In this document: one piece after another, positions 776 to 41,876 of the stretch
Numbering within the stretch: the stretch's first letter is position 1
Layout of the letters: every line of letters begins with the position of its first letter
Virus record (IMG/VR): IMGVR_UViG_3300030060_003087
Location: 1 to 44,307 of that record
Length of the DNA: 44,307 bases
Direction: 5' to 3' (one strand)
Origin: a virus
Program-made: the position numbers and the translations under genes
The notes under the pieces: model-generated
Told to the model about the DNA's origin: nothing
What the model saw: only the letters and a program-made list of their open reading frames with translations
Databases searched by the model: none

Positions 776-1216
776 ATGCGATTAACAAGTCACGATTTAC
801 GTGATTTACAAATCCTTAAGTATTACAGGCTCGTTAGAAAATGGGCCTGTAAGACTTACGGGTTAACAGACGCTGATCTTGAATTACTAATTTACTTAGA
901 TTGTAAAGGAAGATTCACGCGTCAAGAATTTATAGACGGTACTTACACAATGAGTTGGGATAAGAACCGTTGGGAAAAATTAAGGAGGAATGGTTGGATA
1001 GAAACATGGAGACACAGAAATAGAACAACCATCAAATACTCTGTATTCAAAACCTCCTTTAAGTGTTCGCACTTAATAAGTAGAATATATAGAATACTCT
1101 TGGGTGAAGAGGATATACCAACATCAGAGAAGAGTATATTTTTTAATAACAAGTCATACACCGATAAGGTAATGAATAAGTCTATCGATGATATGATAAA
1201 AGATAATGAAAGATGA
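776..1216 (+). CDS. Winged-helix (MarR-like) DNA-binding protein
   Basis: A 146-residue basic protein. Residues 1-30 are helical (LRDLQILKYYRLVRKWACK); LTDADLELLIYLDCKGRFTRQEF looks like the first helices of a MarR-type winged helix; MSWDKNRWEKLRRNGWIETWRHRN is a plausible recognition helix and wing; and KTSFKCSHLISRIYRILLGEEDIP is a C-terminal helical part. MarR-like proteins bind DNA as dimers and regulate transcription, so control of phage genes in the host cytoplasm is the natural inference, although a wHTH fold is also used by small terminases and other phage proteins. It overlaps the holin candidate by 4 bases (ATGA) and is therefore in the same transcript. No operator was recognised. 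Confidence 0.6.
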   Translation: MRLTSHDLRDLQILKYYRLVRKWACKTYGLTDADLELLIYLDCKGRFTRQEFIDGTYTMSWDKNRWEKLRRNGWIETWRHRNRTTIKYSVFKTSFKCSHLISRIYRILLGEEDIPTSEKSIFFNNKSYTDKVMNKSIDDMIKDNER

Positions 1217-1635
1217 TAGGAAAATTTATAGGTGGCTTATTCGGCAAAGTAGTAGACAATGCAGAAGGAATACTTGACAAGGTTATTACAACAGACAAAG
1301 AGCGCGATGAAGCGAAGCTCGCTCTTAGAAAATTATTACTTGAAGCCGAAACTGAAGCTTTCAACAAAGAGGTCGAAGACAGGAAGAGCGCTCGTGATAT
1401 GTATAAAGACGATGCACTTATTCAAAAGATACTTGCGACGTTATTTACAATCGCGTACTTTGGATTAAGCTTTATGATGTTTAGATACTTCGTAATGGGT
1501 GATCTAGAGTTAGGAGAATTTGAGATAAGTTTTATCTCTACAATATTTGGTGCTATGAGCGCTAAGGTTAACACGGTAGTCGATTTCTTTTTCGGCGGAT
1601 CGTCAAAGAAAAATGAACAACAAAATAATAAATAA
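1213..1635 (+). CDS. Holin candidate of the 3TM / GTA type
   Basis: A 140-residue protein. Residues 1-75 are an amphipathic and then charged helical region (DKVITTDKERDEAKLALRKLLLEAETEAFNKE in outline) ending in DRKSARDMYKDDALIQKIL, a pattern typical of the GTA_holin_3TM family, where an E/K-rich helix and an S-A-R motif come before the membrane part. Residues about 76-97 (ILATLFTIAYFGLSFMMFRYF) form a hydrophobic helix, and a second hydrophobic stretch (FEISFISTIFGAMSAKVNTVVDFFFG) follows. Holins permeabilise the inner membrane at the end of infection and release the endolysin. The tail is polar (SSKKNEQQNNK). The clearest endolysin candidate is far away, at 35778. Another membrane-associated role is possible. 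Confidence 0.55.
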   Translation: MIGKFIGGLFGKVVDNAEGILDKVITTDKERDEAKLALRKLLLEAETEAFNKEVEDRKSARDMYKDDALIQKILATLFTIAYFGLSFMMFRYFVMGDLELGEFEISFISTIFGAMSAKVNTVVDFFFGGSSKKNEQQNNK

Positions 1636-4404: not shown

Positions 4405-4621
4405 AGAATTAATTAAAGTAGCTAAAGAACCTATTGTTGATTCAGACGACGACATATCAGCTGACAGATTAAAAAATGCAGCTGCTACAAAGAAACTAGC
4501 TATATTTGATGCTTTTGAAATACTTAATCGTATAAATGAAGAAGAGAATATGCTTGAAGGTAAAGTAGAAGAAAAAAAGGAAACAACATTTAAAGGCTTT
4601 GCAGAAGGTAGATCAAAATGA
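4349..4621 (+). CDS. terS: Putative small terminase subunit
   Basis: A 90-residue, mostly helical acidic/basic protein: KSIIQAGQKAVEELIKVAKE forms the first helix, SADRLKNAAATKKLAIFDAFEILNRINEEENML the second, and the C-terminus is charged (KVEEKKETTFKGFAEGRSK). Small terminases are short helical proteins that recognise phage DNA and feed the large subunit. The call rests mainly on position: the gene overlaps the large terminase by 4 bases (ATGA at 4618). No helix-turn-helix was clearly visible. The start overlaps 56 bases of the preceding gene in another frame, which is long, but later in-frame ATGs would remove the first helix. Confidence 0.45.
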   Translation: MNIKETKKSIIQAGQKAVEELIKVAKEPIVDSDDDISADRLKNAAATKKLAIFDAFEILNRINEEENMLEGKVEEKKETTFKGFAEGRSK

Positions 4622-6855
4622 ATTACGAACAAAGTTTATATAAAATAGTAGAACCAGTAAAACTAACTACCATAAAAAGATTAAACAAATCTAAAAAGTG
4701 GGAGTATGGATATAACAAAGAAAATGATATTGTTGTTATATCTAAGACAGGTGTGATTGGTGATATTATAGAAATACAAGGTTTGCAAATAGCTTTACCT
4801 AGTCAACCTAAAAAAATATATTCTTGTAGCGATAAAAAAGAAGAGCAAAAATGGAAACAATTTTCAGCTAATCCAGCTTTTAAGAAAATTAAAACTGTAT
4901 TTGACTGGCAAGATTATCCAGATGATTTTAAACAAAGTCACTATGAATATATAGATGAAGAGTTTAAAAGAAGAGAAGAAGGTTTTTGGTTCATGAACAA
5001 TGGCGAACCAACCTATATAACAGGAACACACTACATGTATTTACAATGGAGTAAAATAGATGTTGGTGCACCAGATTTTAGAGAGGCAAATAGATTATTC
5101 TTTATATTCTGGGAAGCTTGTAAAGCAGATAAAAGAAGTTACGGTATGTGCTATTTAAAAAATAGACGTTCTGGTTTTTCTTTTATGAGTTCAGCTGAAA
5201 CTGTTAACCTAGCCACATTAGCTAGTGATAGTAGATTTGGGATATTGTCTAAAACCGGTGCTGACGCAAAGAAAATGTTTACCGACAAGGTAGTACCGAT
5301 TAGTTTAAATTACCCTTTCTTCTTCAAACCAATACAGGACGGTATGGACCGGCCAAAGTCCGAGCTCGCTTACAGAGTGCCAGCGAAAAAGTTTACTCGT
5401 AAAAAAATACGTGAACGTGAAGAAATGGATGATGTTGAAGGATTAGATACAACTATAGATTGGAAAAATACAGGTGATAATAGTTATGACGGTGAAAAAC
5501 TAAGTTTATTAGTTCATGATGAGAGTGGTAAGTGGGAAAGACCTGATAATATAAAAAACAACTGGCGAGTTACAAAAACGTGTTTACGACTGGGTAGTAG
5601 AATAGTTGGTAAGTGTATGATGGGAAGTACATCTAACGCATTAGATAAAGGAGGTGATAACTTTAAAAACTTATATAATGATTCAGATGTTACCAAGCGA
5701 AACAGAAATGGACAAACTAAGTCGGGATTATATTCTTTGTTTATTCCTATGGAATGGAATTACGAGGGATTCATTGATGAATTCGGACGACCTGTGTTCA
5801 CTGATCCTGAACAACAAACATTTGATCCACATGGATTAGAAATAGAACAAGGAGTTATAAACCATTGGGACAATGAAGCTGAAGGAATGAAAGACGACCA
5901 AGACGCTTTAAATGAATTTTACCGTCAGTTTCCAAGAACAGAAGAACATGCGTTTAGGGACGAAACAAAAAATAGTTTATTTAATCTTATAAAGATATAC
6001 GAGCAAATAGATTATAATGAAGGAAATAGAAACTCTTCGGTATTAACAACTGGTAACTTTCAATGGGCTAATGGTAAAAAAGATACAATGGTAACTTTTA
6101 ACCCAGATCCAAATGGTAGATTTAAAGTAAGTTGGGTACCAGGAGGTAAATTACAAAATAACGTTATATTAAAAAATGGCGTAAAATATCCAGGTAATGA
6201 ACACATGGGTGCATTTGGTTGTGACTCATATGATATATCTGGAACAGTAGATAAACGAGGATCAAAAGGAGCTTTGCACGGATTAACAAAGTTTTCAATG
6301 GAAGACGCCCCAGCAAATACTTTTTTCCTTGAATATATAGCAAGACCACAAACAGCTGAAATATTTTTTGAAGATGTTTTAATGGCATTAGTATTTTATG
6401 GTATGCCACTACTTGCTGAGAATAACAAACCAAGGTTATTGTACTATTTACGTAGAAGAGGTTATAGAGCTTTTAGTATGAATAGACCTGATAAAGTTTG
6501 GAATAAACTATCAACAGCAGAGAAAGAAGTTGGTGGTATACCAAACTCTAGTGAAGATATAAAGCAAGCTCATGCTGCTGCAATTGAAATGTATATCAAC
6601 GATCATGTTGGTTTATTAGAAGACGGTACTTATGGTACTATGTATTTTAATGAGACATTAAACGACTGGTCAAAGTTTGATATAAATAGAAGAACAAAGC
6701 ATGATGCCTCTATAAGTTCTGGCTTAGCAGTAATGGCTTGCAATAGACATTTATACCGACCAAATCCAAAACAAAAAAGAGAACCATTAAATTTAACCAT
6801 ATCAAAATATAATAACGCTGGATTTTCATCTAAGATAATTAAAAATAAAATATGA
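4618..6855 (+). CDS. terL: Terminase large subunit
   Basis: A 745-residue DNA packaging motor. The ATPase half has a Walker A position at residues 181-188 (K-N-R-R-S-G-F-S), where the usual G-K-S/T is G-F-S, followed by SKTGADAKKMFTDKV. Walker B is LSLLVHDE at 295-302, with the catalytic Glu at 302. The nuclease half shows RNase-H-like acidic positions: Asp536 in FGCDSYDISGT, an acidic residue in LLAENNK, and Asp696 in KHDASISSG. The enzyme uses ATP to pump DNA into the prohead at the portal and cuts the concatemer. The R-R-x-G-F-S variant recalls terminases of Bacteroidota phages, including crAss-like ones (from memory). It overlaps the portal gene by 4 bases. Translation coupling and order (TerS-TerL-portal) are standard. 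Confidence 0.88.
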   Translation: MNYEQSLYKIVEPVKLTTIKRLNKSKKWEYGYNKENDIVVISKTGVIGDIIEIQGLQIALPSQPKKIYSCSDKKEEQKWKQFSANPAFKKIKTVFDWQDYPDDFKQSHYEYIDEEFKRREEGFWFMNNGEPTYITGTHYMYLQWSKIDVGAPDFREANRLFFIFWEACKADKRSYGMCYLKNRRSGFSFMSSAETVNLATLASDSRFGILSKTGADAKKMFTDKVVPISLNYPFFFKPIQDGMDRPKSELAYRVPAKKFTRKKIREREEMDDVEGLDTTIDWKNTGDNSYDGEKLSLLVHDESGKWERPDNIKNNWRVTKTCLRLGSRIVGKCMMGSTSNALDKGGDNFKNLYNDSDVTKRNRNGQTKSGLYSLFIPMEWNYEGFIDEFGRPVFTDPEQQTFDPHGLEIEQGVINHWDNEAEGMKDDQDALNEFYRQFPRTEEHAFRDETKNSLFNLIKIYEQIDYNEGNRNSSVLTTGNFQWANGKKDTMVTFNPDPNGRFKVSWVPGGKLQNNVILKNGVKYPGNEHMGAFGCDSYDISGTVDKRGSKGALHGLTKFSMEDAPANTFFLEYIARPQTAEIFFEDVLMALVFYGMPLLAENNKPRLLYYLRRRGYRAFSMNRPDKVWNKLSTAEKEVGGIPNSSEDIKQAHAAAIEMYINDHVGLLEDGTYGTMYFNETLNDWSKFDINRRTKHDASISSGLAVMACNRHLYRPNPKQKREPLNLTISKYNNAGFSSKIIKNKI

Positions 6856-35777: not shown

Positions 35778-36269
35778 ATGAACTTAGAAGTAATTAGATT
35801 TTCCAGTGGTACTGATAGTACTAATGGAATATTATTTGAAACAATACAACAAGGAAACGAAATAGATGGTATATTTAAACAAAAAAAATTCTTAGCGTAT
35901 ACACTAGAAGATGAACAGCGTAATGAAAAGGTTTATGGAGAAACTAGAATACCTAATGGAACATACAAGTTGGGTCTTAGAAAAGTTGGTGGATATCATG
36001 CAAAATATTCTAAACGCTTTTCTCATATTCATATTGGTATGCTTCACGTGCTTGACGTTCCTGGTTTTGAGTACATACTTATTCACTGTGGAAATACTGA
36101 TGAACACACAGCAGGGTGTTTACTTGTCGGGGACTCACAAGAAAATAACCAAATCACGACGGACGGTTTTATAGGTAAATCAACTCAAGCGTATAAAAGA
36201 ATTTATCCACGTATAGCAGAAGCTATTGAGTGTGGAGAGAAAGTTACAATAACATATAAGACTATCTAA
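35778..36269 (+). CDS. DUF5675-like protein, lysis enzyme candidate
   Basis: A 163-residue protein. Its core, LAYTLEDEQRNEK near residues 39-51, RIPNGTYKLGLRKVGGYHAKYS at 57-77 and IHCGNTDEHTAGCLLVG at 102-118, matches the DUF5675 family as I know it. The last motif, His103 with T-A-G-C114 (H-x-G-N-x(3-4)-T-x-G-C), resembles the catalytic His/Cys arrangement of L,D-transpeptidase-like folds, so attack on or remodelling of peptidoglycan is plausible. Phages often place the family near holins and spanins. No signal peptide is present, so release would depend on a holin. Catalysis is inference. The stop overlaps the next start (TAATG at 36267-36271). Confidence 0.6.
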   Translation: MNLEVIRFSSGTDSTNGILFETIQQGNEIDGIFKQKKFLAYTLEDEQRNEKVYGETRIPNGTYKLGLRKVGGYHAKYSKRFSHIHIGMLHVLDVPGFEYILIHCGNTDEHTAGCLLVGDSQENNQITTDGFIGKSTQAYKRIYPRIAEAIECGEKVTITYKTI

Positions 36270-38975: not shown

Positions 38976-39320
38976 ATGGCAAAAGAACTATCAGAAGACA
39001 GTAAATTTCAAATAAGCATTAAAACACTAGTTGGTATTGTCGTGGCTGTTGCTACGGTGATATCAGCTTACTTTGGTTTAATGAGTACTATTAACTCTAA
39101 GTTTAACGATCTAGAAGTTAAAGTACAAGAAGCTTTAGAAAAACCAGTACCAGGAACAGGTACATACACTATTGATATGGGTGATCCAGCAGCTACTAAC
39201 ACTTGGCCGCCAACTCGCATGGAGTTTAACATGAAGGATCAAATGGCTCGTAATCAAATTGACGCGTTAGTAAAGGAAGTTGATGAGTTGAAAGACGAAA
39301 TAAAACTATTAAGACAATGA
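38976..39320 (+). CDS. Membrane-anchored coiled-coil protein (spanin-like topology)
   Basis: A 114-residue protein. Residues 1-14 are polar (MAKELSEDSKFQIS), residues about 17-38 are one hydrophobic helix (LVGIVVAVATVISAYFGLM), residues 39-60 are charged, and a Gly/Pro/Thr-rich linker (PVPGTGTYTIDMGDPAATNTWPP) leads to a C-terminal coiled coil (NQIDALVKEVDELKDEIKLL). This N-in topology with a periplasmic coiled coil is that of inner-membrane spanins and some other lysis or envelope proteins. It overlaps the next gene by 4 bases (ATGA), so the two membrane-linked products are coupled. No family identified. Confidence 0.5.
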   Translation: MAKELSEDSKFQISIKTLVGIVVAVATVISAYFGLMSTINSKFNDLEVKVQEALEKPVPGTGTYTIDMGDPAATNTWPPTRMEFNMKDQMARNQIDALVKEVDELKDEIKLLRQ

Positions 39321-39724
39321 AAAAAAGAATAGACGTTACAACTTGGGCGTATGTTGCTACTATAGTAATAATATATTTTCTAGGCACAGCAATGGGTTTA
39401 GCTCAAGAGGTTATTACCGCTAGTAATTTTGATAGTAAAATAGCTAAAGATATTTCTGTAGTAGAATTTTGGGCTGATTGGAATAAACAAAATCAATTTG
39501 AAGAAATAAATAAATTAAAAGAAGCTAGTAAATATAGAGTTGATATAATGCATTGCTCTGATTTACAAGCTGAGTACAATATAACAGCTATACCTACAAT
39601 TGTTATATTCGACAATGGTGTGGAAAAATGTAGGTTTAACGCAAACATTATGTTTCAATTAGAGGCTGATAAAAAAGTTATACAAAATTCTATTGATACA
39701 ATAATACTAAATAAATTTCAATAA
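39317..39724 (+). CDS. Exported thioredoxin-fold protein lacking CxxC
   Basis: A 135-residue protein. Residues 5-30 form a hydrophobic signal peptide or anchor (WAYVATIVIIYFLGTAMGLAQ). Residues 33-135 have the thioredoxin layout: VVEFWADWNKQN at 48-59, YRVDIMHCSDLQAEYNITAIPTIVIFDNG at 73-101 with the cis-Pro at 93, and a final helix. In active thioredoxins the first motif is FWAxWCxxC; here the two cysteines are Asn56 and Asn59, so the redox activity is lost, while Cys80 and Cys103 lie elsewhere. The fold may act as a binding or chaperone module in the periplasm (inference). It follows the coiled-coil membrane protein by overlap. Confidence 0.65.
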   Translation: MKKRIDVTTWAYVATIVIIYFLGTAMGLAQEVITASNFDSKIAKDISVVEFWADWNKQNQFEEINKLKEASKYRVDIMHCSDLQAEYNITAIPTIVIFDNGVEKCRFNANIMFQLEADKKVIQNSIDTIILNKFQ

Positions 39725-40799: not shown

Positions 40800-41341
40800 T
40801 GGCTAAGAAAACATCTAAGTCAATCACTTGGCATGACTCAGACGCGCCAGATGCTAAAGGTAAATTTAAAGAATTAGCACCAAACGCTTTAGCGTCATGG
40901 CTTATTAAAACTAGAAAAGGTAACTTATCTAAAATAATAAGTAGTTTAAATCAACAGTACGTTTTTAATAGAGGTAAAAAACCTAGCTATGCTCGTAAGA
41001 TGAAAACAGTTATGAACATAGTTAGAAAACGTTTAGGTAAAAAAGAAGATTCACCTCTTAAAAAAGATCCACTAGTTGGAACAGGTAAAAAACCTAAAGG
41101 TAGTGGAAGAAGATTATATACAGATGAAAATCCTAAAGATACTGTTGGTATTAAGTTTGCAACAGTAGCTGATGCTAGAAAGACTATAGCTAAAGTTATG
41201 AATATAAACAAACCATATGCTAGAAAGGTACAGATATTAACTGTGTTAGAACAGAGAGCTAAAGTTATGGGTAAAATGGAACAAGCTAGATTAGCTAAAG
41301 CTGCTAAAGCTAAATTAAAAAAGCAAAATAAAAATGTTTAA
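40799..41341 (+). CDS. Basic protein with DUF5824-like domain
   Basis: A 180-residue Lys-rich protein. Residues 10-78 are one helical region (WHDSDAPDAKGKFKELAPNALASWLIKTRKGN, then YARKMKTVMNIVRKRLGK). Residues about 83-88 hold DSPLKK. Then GTGKKPKGSGRRLYTDENPKDTVGIKF, a pattern I associate with DUF5824, is followed by a C-terminal helix with an Ala/Lys-rich end. It begins in a TAATG overlap with the previous gene and overlaps the PAP2 gene by 8 bases. The function of the domain is unknown. Basic nature and SPLKK suggest DNA contact (inference). Confidence 0.55.
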   Translation: MAKKTSKSITWHDSDAPDAKGKFKELAPNALASWLIKTRKGNLSKIISSLNQQYVFNRGKKPSYARKMKTVMNIVRKRLGKKEDSPLKKDPLVGTGKKPKGSGRRLYTDENPKDTVGIKFATVADARKTIAKVMNINKPYARKVQILTVLEQRAKVMGKMEQARLAKAAKAKLKKQNKNV

Positions 41342-41876
41342 AGGTTTTGATATAGATAAGTTTAAAAATATAAAACCGCCTTCTGATAATTCTTTTAATA
41401 CAATGCAGGAGGTAAAGCAACTTAATACTATACCTATGAACAAAACATCTGTTCAACGGTATGATAACATAGAAAAAACATTTGCTGATATAGCTGCTAA
41501 AAATAATATAACTAACTATGACTCTAAGTTAGTTGGTGATTTGATAAAAAAATCTGCACCTATAGTAACTAAATTAAAAAAACATTTCAATAGGCCTAGA
41601 CCTAAAGTTATAGCCAAAAAGTTAGGTATTAATATGCAAGACTACGAAATGAACTCTATGAAAACACCATCATATCCTAGTGGTCACTCAACTCAAGGTG
41701 TATTAATCGGTAAAGTGCTGGCAGATAAGTTTCCTAAAGCATCAAAAGAATTTATCAAAGCTGGTAAAAAAATATCTGATAGTAGAAGAACAGCTAAAGC
41801 TCATTATAAATCTGATAGTATAATGGGTGAAAAGTTAGGTGAAGCAATGTATCAACACGTAAAAGATAAAGTGTAA
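41334..41876 (+). CDS. PAP2-family phosphatase (soluble)
   Basis: A 180-residue protein with all three signature motifs of the PAP2 / class A acid phosphatase superfamily at correct spacing: KX6RP at residues 82-90 (K82 to R89-P90), PSGH at 115-118, and SRX5HX3D at 150-161 (S150, R151, H157, D161). These bind the phosphate and supply the catalytic His pair. There is no signal peptide and no clear membrane helix, so it is probably cytoplasmic or delivered in another way; lipid-linked or soluble phosphate esters are possible substrates. PAP2 in a phage structural-side block is unusual. It overlaps the previous gene by 8 bases and the following start by 1 (TAATG). Confidence 0.78.
   Translation: MFKGFDIDKFKNIKPPSDNSFNTMQEVKQLNTIPMNKTSVQRYDNIEKTFADIAAKNNITNYDSKLVGDLIKKSAPIVTKLKKHFNRPRPKVIAKKLGINMQDYEMNSMKTPSYPSGHSTQGVLIGKVLADKFPKASKEFIKAGKKISDSRRTAKAHYKSDSIMGEKLGEAMYQHVKDKV

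Follow-up and report, generated by a model that had tools for sequence, protein, structure and literature searches.

The closest described counterparts of the genes analysed here are the two-component spanins, represented by Rz/Rz1 of phage lambda and 18.5/18.7 of phage T7. As formally defined, such a spanin consists of an i-spanin, which is a type II protein of the inner membrane (N-in, C-out) with a periplasmic helix, and an o-spanin, which is a lipoprotein of the outer membrane with a lipobox. The two are encoded by linked and often overlapping genes within a lysis cassette or close to one, and their complex crosses the periplasm and is required for disruption of the outer membrane. A large survey (Kongari 2018; PMC6139136) gives 91 of 677 genomes as having no spanin, including phages of Croceibacter and Bacteroides, and for phages that lack one it raises the idea that ‘an OMP could act as an o-spanin’. 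The module described here offers concrete candidate genes for the breaking of the outer membrane in phages without recognizable spanins. A search of the literature, judged by titles and the beginnings of abstracts, found no paper on such a module, nor was any paper found in which ‘NXXN’ occurs together with ‘thioredoxin’.

The module was analysed in a stretch of viral DNA of 44,307 bases, referred to throughout as the window (Table 1). It comprises genes for a membrane protein with a coiled coil (the coil), an exported protein with a thioredoxin fold and a predicted outer-membrane β-barrel (the barrel). The carriers are marine phages of Bacteroidota-type hosts. The terminase gene of the window (4618–6855) shares 45% identity with its counterpart in elemo-group Flavobacterium phages and 63% with an uncultured podovirus terminase; a 29-kb phage group also carries the module, and its terminase has no BLAST similarity to that of the window. 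No cultured host was found for the module phages in the phage collection, where the thioredoxin-fold protein gave weak matches only, and neither the barrel (four queries) nor the coil had a tblastn match among 50,697 phage records. A scan for the barrel gave at least 582 confirmed relatives, which makes the module a common one among the viral contigs searched.

Table 1. Positions of the module and of neighbouring features in the window
Feature	Position	Strand	Remarks
Window	1-44,307		whole of virus record IMGVR_UViG_3300030060_003087
Holin-family homologue	1213..1635	+	phrog_3427, E 5e-4; far from the coil/thioredoxin pair, as in the window clade
DUF5675 gene	35778..36269	+	some close relatives have a gene of an endolysin family (phrog_33083) in this slot; role in lysis suggested by position only
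Barrel, exported, 350 aa	36394..37446	+	third partner; signal peptide, structure prediction
Exported protein, 259 aa	37917..38696	+	Cys-rich N-terminal part (weak LDL-receptor-A-like match, E 0.018), long β-rich rod
Coil gene, 114 aa	38976..39320	+	ORF list
Coil transmembrane segment, residues 18-36	about 39027-39083	+	single, N-terminal hydrophobic segment
Thioredoxin-fold gene, exported, 135 aa	39317..39724	+	ORF list, Pfam, AlphaFold2, Foldseek
Signal peptide of thioredoxin-fold protein	39317..39403	+	mature start Q30
N56-x-x-N59 replacing CxxC	39482..39493	+	N56 39482-39484, N59 39491-39493; invariant in 135/135
cis-Pro93-Thr94	39593..39598	+	cis-Pro93 39593-39595; invariant in 135/135

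Three genes inherited together

The coil has an N-terminal transmembrane segment, a conserved segment of the TRMEFxMKD type and a C-terminal coiled coil, and it matches PHROG family phrog_20984, which is of unknown function (E 1.6e-6). Exactly one hydrophobic segment lies above the threshold in 128 of 129 distinct coil proteins; all 129 have a heptad signal (p ≤0.05 against shuffles) and none contains a cysteine. The charge around the transmembrane segment is uninformative as a guide to topology, which it does not settle, the N-terminal side being the more positive in 68/129 and equal to the other in 47/129. The part of the coil that is presumably periplasmic is short, at about 55–80 residues. 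A second, longer gene of the coil type (327 nt) is seen ~0.5–1 kb downstream of the thioredoxin-fold gene in L063, L067, L070, L073, L076, L077, L078 and L080, and in several of these loci it precedes an M15 endolysin gene.

The coil gene overlaps the thioredoxin-fold gene by four nucleotides (ATGA, 39317–39320); both reading frames are as described in the first-pass annotation, which had proposed overlapping genes for a membrane-anchored coiled coil and an exported thioredoxin fold. The fold assignment agrees between methods. Pfam Thioredoxin matches with E 1.7e-9 and 38.1 bits (cut-off 23.5), the AlphaFold2 model (pLDDT 86.4) is matched to thioredoxins by both Foldseek and VIA-align 2, with thioredoxin 2voc as the best structural match (Z 15.7, rmsd 1.7, 97 residues aligned), and a sequence search of the PDB returned thioredoxin, PDI-type proteins and designed or ancestral thioredoxins. 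Because the signal peptide is followed by an invariant Q30, with A, G or S at position –1 in 124 of 135 distinct proteins and a lipobox in 1/135, the protein is likely to be exported and cleaved before Gln30. Forms that have lost the first strand and helix but keep WNxxN and the cis-Pro occur in L160, L161, L163, L164, L168 and L251–L254.

Features expected of an outer-membrane barrel are a signal peptide, an even number of strands and an aromatic residue at the C-terminus. The barrel is predicted to have about 12 strands of at least 9 residues (pLDDT 71.9), and its last residue, L in the window, is F in most distinct relatives (122 of 134). The best PDB matches of the model are the outer-membrane barrels FapF, OmpG, NanC and EstA (Foldseek E 8e-7 to 5e-6); the likeness is one of barrel class, and with 7–9% identity, TM-scores of 0.23–0.62 and moderate model confidence it indicates the class of fold and no family. 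The viral protein A0A516LKJ4 in UniProt is a relative of the barrel (30% identity, Foldseek E 6e-26). A strict lipobox is found in 15 of the 134 barrels, most often as LLISC-ATPKKCC, and not in that of the window; in L051, L160 and L163 it is the sole strict lipobox of the locus. Thus, for some members of the family, the lipid anchor expected on a spanin partner may be borne by the barrel.

Relatives were gathered by a search for the thioredoxin-fold protein, a scan for the coil and a scan for the barrel, the latter two made without the thioredoxin pattern. The 231 thioredoxin-fold reading frames, less four that were short, left 227, of which 138 were distinct in DNA and 135 in protein; duplicates (L037, L283–L287) and all loci on genome contigs except L168 were dropped. 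The coil gene is directly upstream of the thioredoxin-fold gene, ending within 60 nt of its start, in 136 of the 138 distinct loci. One exception, L011, is at a contig end and the other, L084, has a gap of 291 nt; wherever a coil gene lacks its partner (L103, L151, L152, L214, L225, L272) the contig ends within 20 nt of it. Separate inheritance of the two genes, against which the first-pass annotation had set their pairing, is therefore not borne out.

The barrel is the third member of the set. It lies within 4 kb of the thioredoxin-fold gene in 120 of the 138 loci. Where the flank extends for at least 4 kb upstream and 2.5 kb downstream (83 loci, the eligible loci), the count is 75. For five of the eight misses the record does contain a barrel: at 4.06 kb in L148, elsewhere in L027, L141 and L158, and as a fragment at a contig end in L139. 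None was found in the records of L145 (26 kb), L153 (17 kb) and L035 (35 kb), which are fragmentary. From the barrel-only scan 80 loci were kept of at least 582 matches; among the matches listed, coil and thioredoxin-fold genes accompany the barrel in 68 of the 80, some being cut by a contig end. Three more have the thioredoxin-fold gene elsewhere in the record (L242, L277 and L250, the last on the same contig as L158), and in the remaining nine the contig breaks off no more than 1.6 kb from the barrel or 20 nt from the coil. All three genes are also present in L168, a contig of a Sphingobacteriales MAG, where the barrel gene follows the other two rather than preceding them.

The family of the exported 259-aa protein is a frequent fourth neighbour (64/112 loci). 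A type IX secretion tail on this protein, suggested by eye, found no match in Pfam or NCBIfam. The only such tail is on a 654-aa protein encoded between the thioredoxin-fold and barrel genes of L168 (L168:8620-10584; Por_Secre_tail, E 1.9e-9). The block that holds the module in the window also encodes a PAP2-type phosphatase (41334–41876; Pfam E 1.6e-7). Small lysine-rich proteins (window 37449, 38699, 39727 and 42488, and 40479, 41876 and 42151) have common N-terminal tags, MAFKMKG/MPFKLKGFSGFK or MAYIQKxNPF, which recur in L168 at 6824, 7115 and 8267 and are perhaps packaging or targeting tags.

Asparagine in place of both catalytic cysteines

The sequence W55-N56-K-Q-N59 occupies the W-CxxC position of thioredoxin. 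Six positions are invariant among the 135 distinct thioredoxin-fold proteins (Q30, W55, N56, N59, P93 and T94), pairwise identities within this set ranging from 24 to 99% with a median of 43%, and the two residues between the asparagines vary. The first-pass annotation had read both active-site cysteines as asparagine and the cis-Pro as kept, and had named relatives with an intact CxxC as the finding that would overturn this; there is none among the 135. The peptide patterns of the thioredoxin search included WN and are not by themselves proof of invariance; at the loci of the barrel scan (L244–L282), all 30 complete thioredoxin-fold proteins have WNxxN. As a yardstick, 35 thioredoxin matches on genome contigs comprise 32 with CxxC, one with NxxN (L168) and two with neither (L193, L198). 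Those with CxxC were considered as relatives of the module and set aside as ordinary thioredoxins with no barrel match nearby. Coil matches near the genome-contig thioredoxins were limited to that of L168 and a weak one in L187 (a 242-aa protein, E 5e-4), the latter being taken for chance.

The codons of the two asparagines differ among the 138 distinct genes (AAT/AAT in 75, AAC/AAT in 43, AAC/AAC in 11 and AAT/AAC in 9), and at each site two base changes separate a cysteine codon from AAT or AAC. A sequence error or local decay is ruled out by these varying codons and the presence of NxxN in 135/135. Since the codons vary and both residues are kept throughout, the alignment points to selection for asparagine at positions 56 and 59, beyond mere loss of cysteine.

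The description of the protein as ‘cysteine-free’ in the first-pass annotation is incorrect, C80 and C105 being present in the window; neither is conserved (22/135 and 8/135, respectively). A cysteine at position 70, absent from the window, is found in 104 of the 135 relatives, and the mature protein has exactly one cysteine in 76/135 and none in 5/135. Cys70 could form an intermolecular disulfide of the kind described for spanins (PMC6139136).

Compared with the thioredoxin family PF00085, the module proteins share the fold, the tryptophan before the active site, the cis-Pro-Thr pair, a Pfam score above the cut-off and the close structural match to 2voc; they differ in having asparagine for both catalytic cysteines in 135/135, a signal peptide and a conserved C-terminal segment (IMFQL...KF). 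They have the fold and the cis-Pro of a redox-active thioredoxin and not its catalytic cysteines. It had been proposed that the pair forms an envelope complex that uses the fold for binding only. Use for binding fits the invariant NxxN and cis-Pro and the free variation between the asparagines, and the proposal as a whole is partly supported. The barrel, as a third co-inherited gene, and the lysis setting described below are new relative to it, and together they change the likely purpose of the module.

Lysis genes around the module

The order of genes in L246, L251, L260 and L270 is barrel, exported protein, coil, thioredoxin fold, M15 endolysin and holin, with a small membrane protein before the coil in three of the four; in L278 the endolysin is a relative of phrog_33083. 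The loci were scored with M15, C23, DUF5675 and holin-type models that were built from the same loci; PHROG support is weak or lacking for two of the holin-type models, both of small membrane proteins. With DUF5675 counted, a lysis-type gene lies within 4 kb in 72 of the 83 eligible loci, and 11 have none in this range. An endolysin-type gene is within this distance in 69/83 with DUF5675 and in 44/83 (M15 or C23) without it, and a holin-type gene in 53/83; M15 or C23 follows the thioredoxin-fold gene directly (≤20 nt) in 22/83. The DUF5675 slot is filled by a relative of phrog_33083 in L010 and L014. Kinship of DUF5675 with the phrog_33083-type endolysin was considered and is not supported, the profile comparison giving a probability of 0.3%.

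An independent test used 35 whole records, selected from those fetched as long contigs plus the 29-kb group, which were searched with PHROG families and a thioredoxin profile. The thioredoxin-fold gene is present in all 35, in one copy each. Holin phrog_3427 was found in 32 of them, and outside the window clade all 26 matches lie within 3.0 kb of it, compared with 4.1 of 26 expected under uniform placement, an expectation that ignores the relatedness of the records. M15 family phrog_894 occurs in 15/35, always within 0.91 kb, and phrog_33083 in 7/35, always within 2.8 kb. In the window clade a weak holin match lies 24–42 kb from the pair in 6/6 records.

A lipobox scan that took in all start codons of six ~29-kb records, which may be incomplete, and of the window, from which part of the phage genome may be absent, found no convincing gene for a lipoprotein spanin. 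The scanner recovers lambda Rz1, T7 18.7 and the barrels with a lipobox; its candidates in the seven records are 45–66 aa long (two strict and four further lax), and none is spanin-like.

Possible functions and comparison with spanins

A coil, a periplasmic fold and a barrel are co-inherited, and they lie beside holin and endolysin genes in most records outside the window clade; the simplest reading is therefore a membrane-linking lysis device. We favour, at a little under even chances, a phage envelope module that is a spanin analogue, bridging the inner and outer membranes at lysis, in which the NxxN groove would serve to clamp a peptide without redox chemistry. The sequences, their co-inheritance, the invariance and the lysis setting are observed; localization, contacts, timing and function are inferred, as follows. 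The coil would be anchored in the inner membrane, its helix reaching into the periplasm. The thioredoxin-fold protein would be secreted into this compartment by virtue of its signal peptide, and the barrel, to judge by its signal peptide, predicted structure and C-terminus, would sit in the outer membrane. The NxxN/cis-Pro groove, taking no part in redox reactions, would hold an extended peptide, and the two membranes would thereby be linked; this peptide might come from the conserved TRMEF segment of the coil or from a portion of the barrel that faces the periplasm. After the holin and endolysin have acted, this link would disrupt the outer membrane.

Several observations count against a spanin analogue. 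The holin of the window clade is distant, the nearby DUF5675 gene has no profile match to phrog_33083, and some of the eligible loci (11/83) have no lysis-type gene within 4 kb. The thioredoxin-fold protein is not a lipoprotein, the window barrel is without a lipobox, and the periplasmic part of the coil is short. Further exported proteins are encoded in the same block, so that remodelling of the host surface is also possible.

Of the other readings, the one that survives best is superinfection exclusion or receptor masking, in which the barrel and other exported proteins would alter the host surface while the coil and the thioredoxin-fold protein anchor them from the periplasm. It would account for the further exported proteins that often adjoin the trio, for the type IX secretion tail on the neighbour in L168 and for the distance from the holin in the window clade; the pair is nevertheless found with endolysin and holin in most other records, a late-lysis setting, and we regard this reading as unlikely. 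Alternatively, the thioredoxin-fold protein, with its cysteine-less site, might be a dedicated chaperone or assembly factor that holds an exported phage protein, such as the barrel, on its way through the periplasm while being tethered to the inner membrane by the coil. Thioredoxin folds without redox activity have known roles in binding or as chaperones, as in ERp29 and calsequestrin, and the protein co-occurs with the barrel. The placement among lysis genes would then be left unexplained, however, and no barrel was found in the fragmentary records of 3 of the 83 eligible loci, which makes such a role rather doubtful.

A decoy for the thiol-disulfide system of the host periplasm, binding Dsb- or TlpA-type partners or substrates with which it cannot react, would suit a groove in which cis-Pro, Trp and Thr are invariant while both cysteines are replaced; in active relatives the cis-Pro loop anchors the substrate (PMC13269488). 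The strict link to the coil and the barrel would be left unexplained, asparagine at both sites in every relative is not needed by a decoy, and we consider it improbable. That the protein is still a redox protein, through its other cysteines or those of a partner, is suggested by the frequent Cys70 and single mature cysteine and is very improbable in view of the absence of active-site cysteines in 135/135, of any mature cysteine in 5/135, of C70 in the window and of cysteine in all 129 coils.

We return to the spanin analogue. A more specific form of it, held more tentatively, is that barrel, NxxN thioredoxin fold and coil make up a novel, tripartite type of spanin in phages of Bacteroidota-type hosts without a lipoprotein spanin, the groove being a fixed non-redox peptide clamp; the trio may represent a novel means of rupturing the outer membrane from within. 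If the module is read correctly, it is also a naturally occurring example of strong selection maintaining a thioredoxin groove in which asparagine has become fixed at both cysteine positions.

The likeness to Rz/Rz1 of lambda and 18.5/18.7 of T7 lies in an inner-membrane coiled-coil protein, an exported partner encoded by an overlapping downstream gene, and a place beside lysis genes. The single N-terminal hydrophobic segment (128/129) and the coiled coil would be compatible with an i-spanin, the orientation that the definition requires not being settled by charge; the linkage of genes is that of a spanin (136/138 adjacent, 72/83 with a lysis-type gene nearby), with the holin of the window clade at a distance. 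The module is outside the two-component spanins as formally defined because there is no lipoprotein partner in the window, a lipobox being found in 1/135 thioredoxin-fold proteins and not on the window barrel. Whereas the exported partner in lambda and T7 is a lipoprotein, that of the module is a thioredoxin fold with a site of the signal-peptidase-I type; its gene overlaps that of the coil by four nucleotides and is not embedded in it, and the module adds a co-inherited third gene, that of the outer-membrane barrel.
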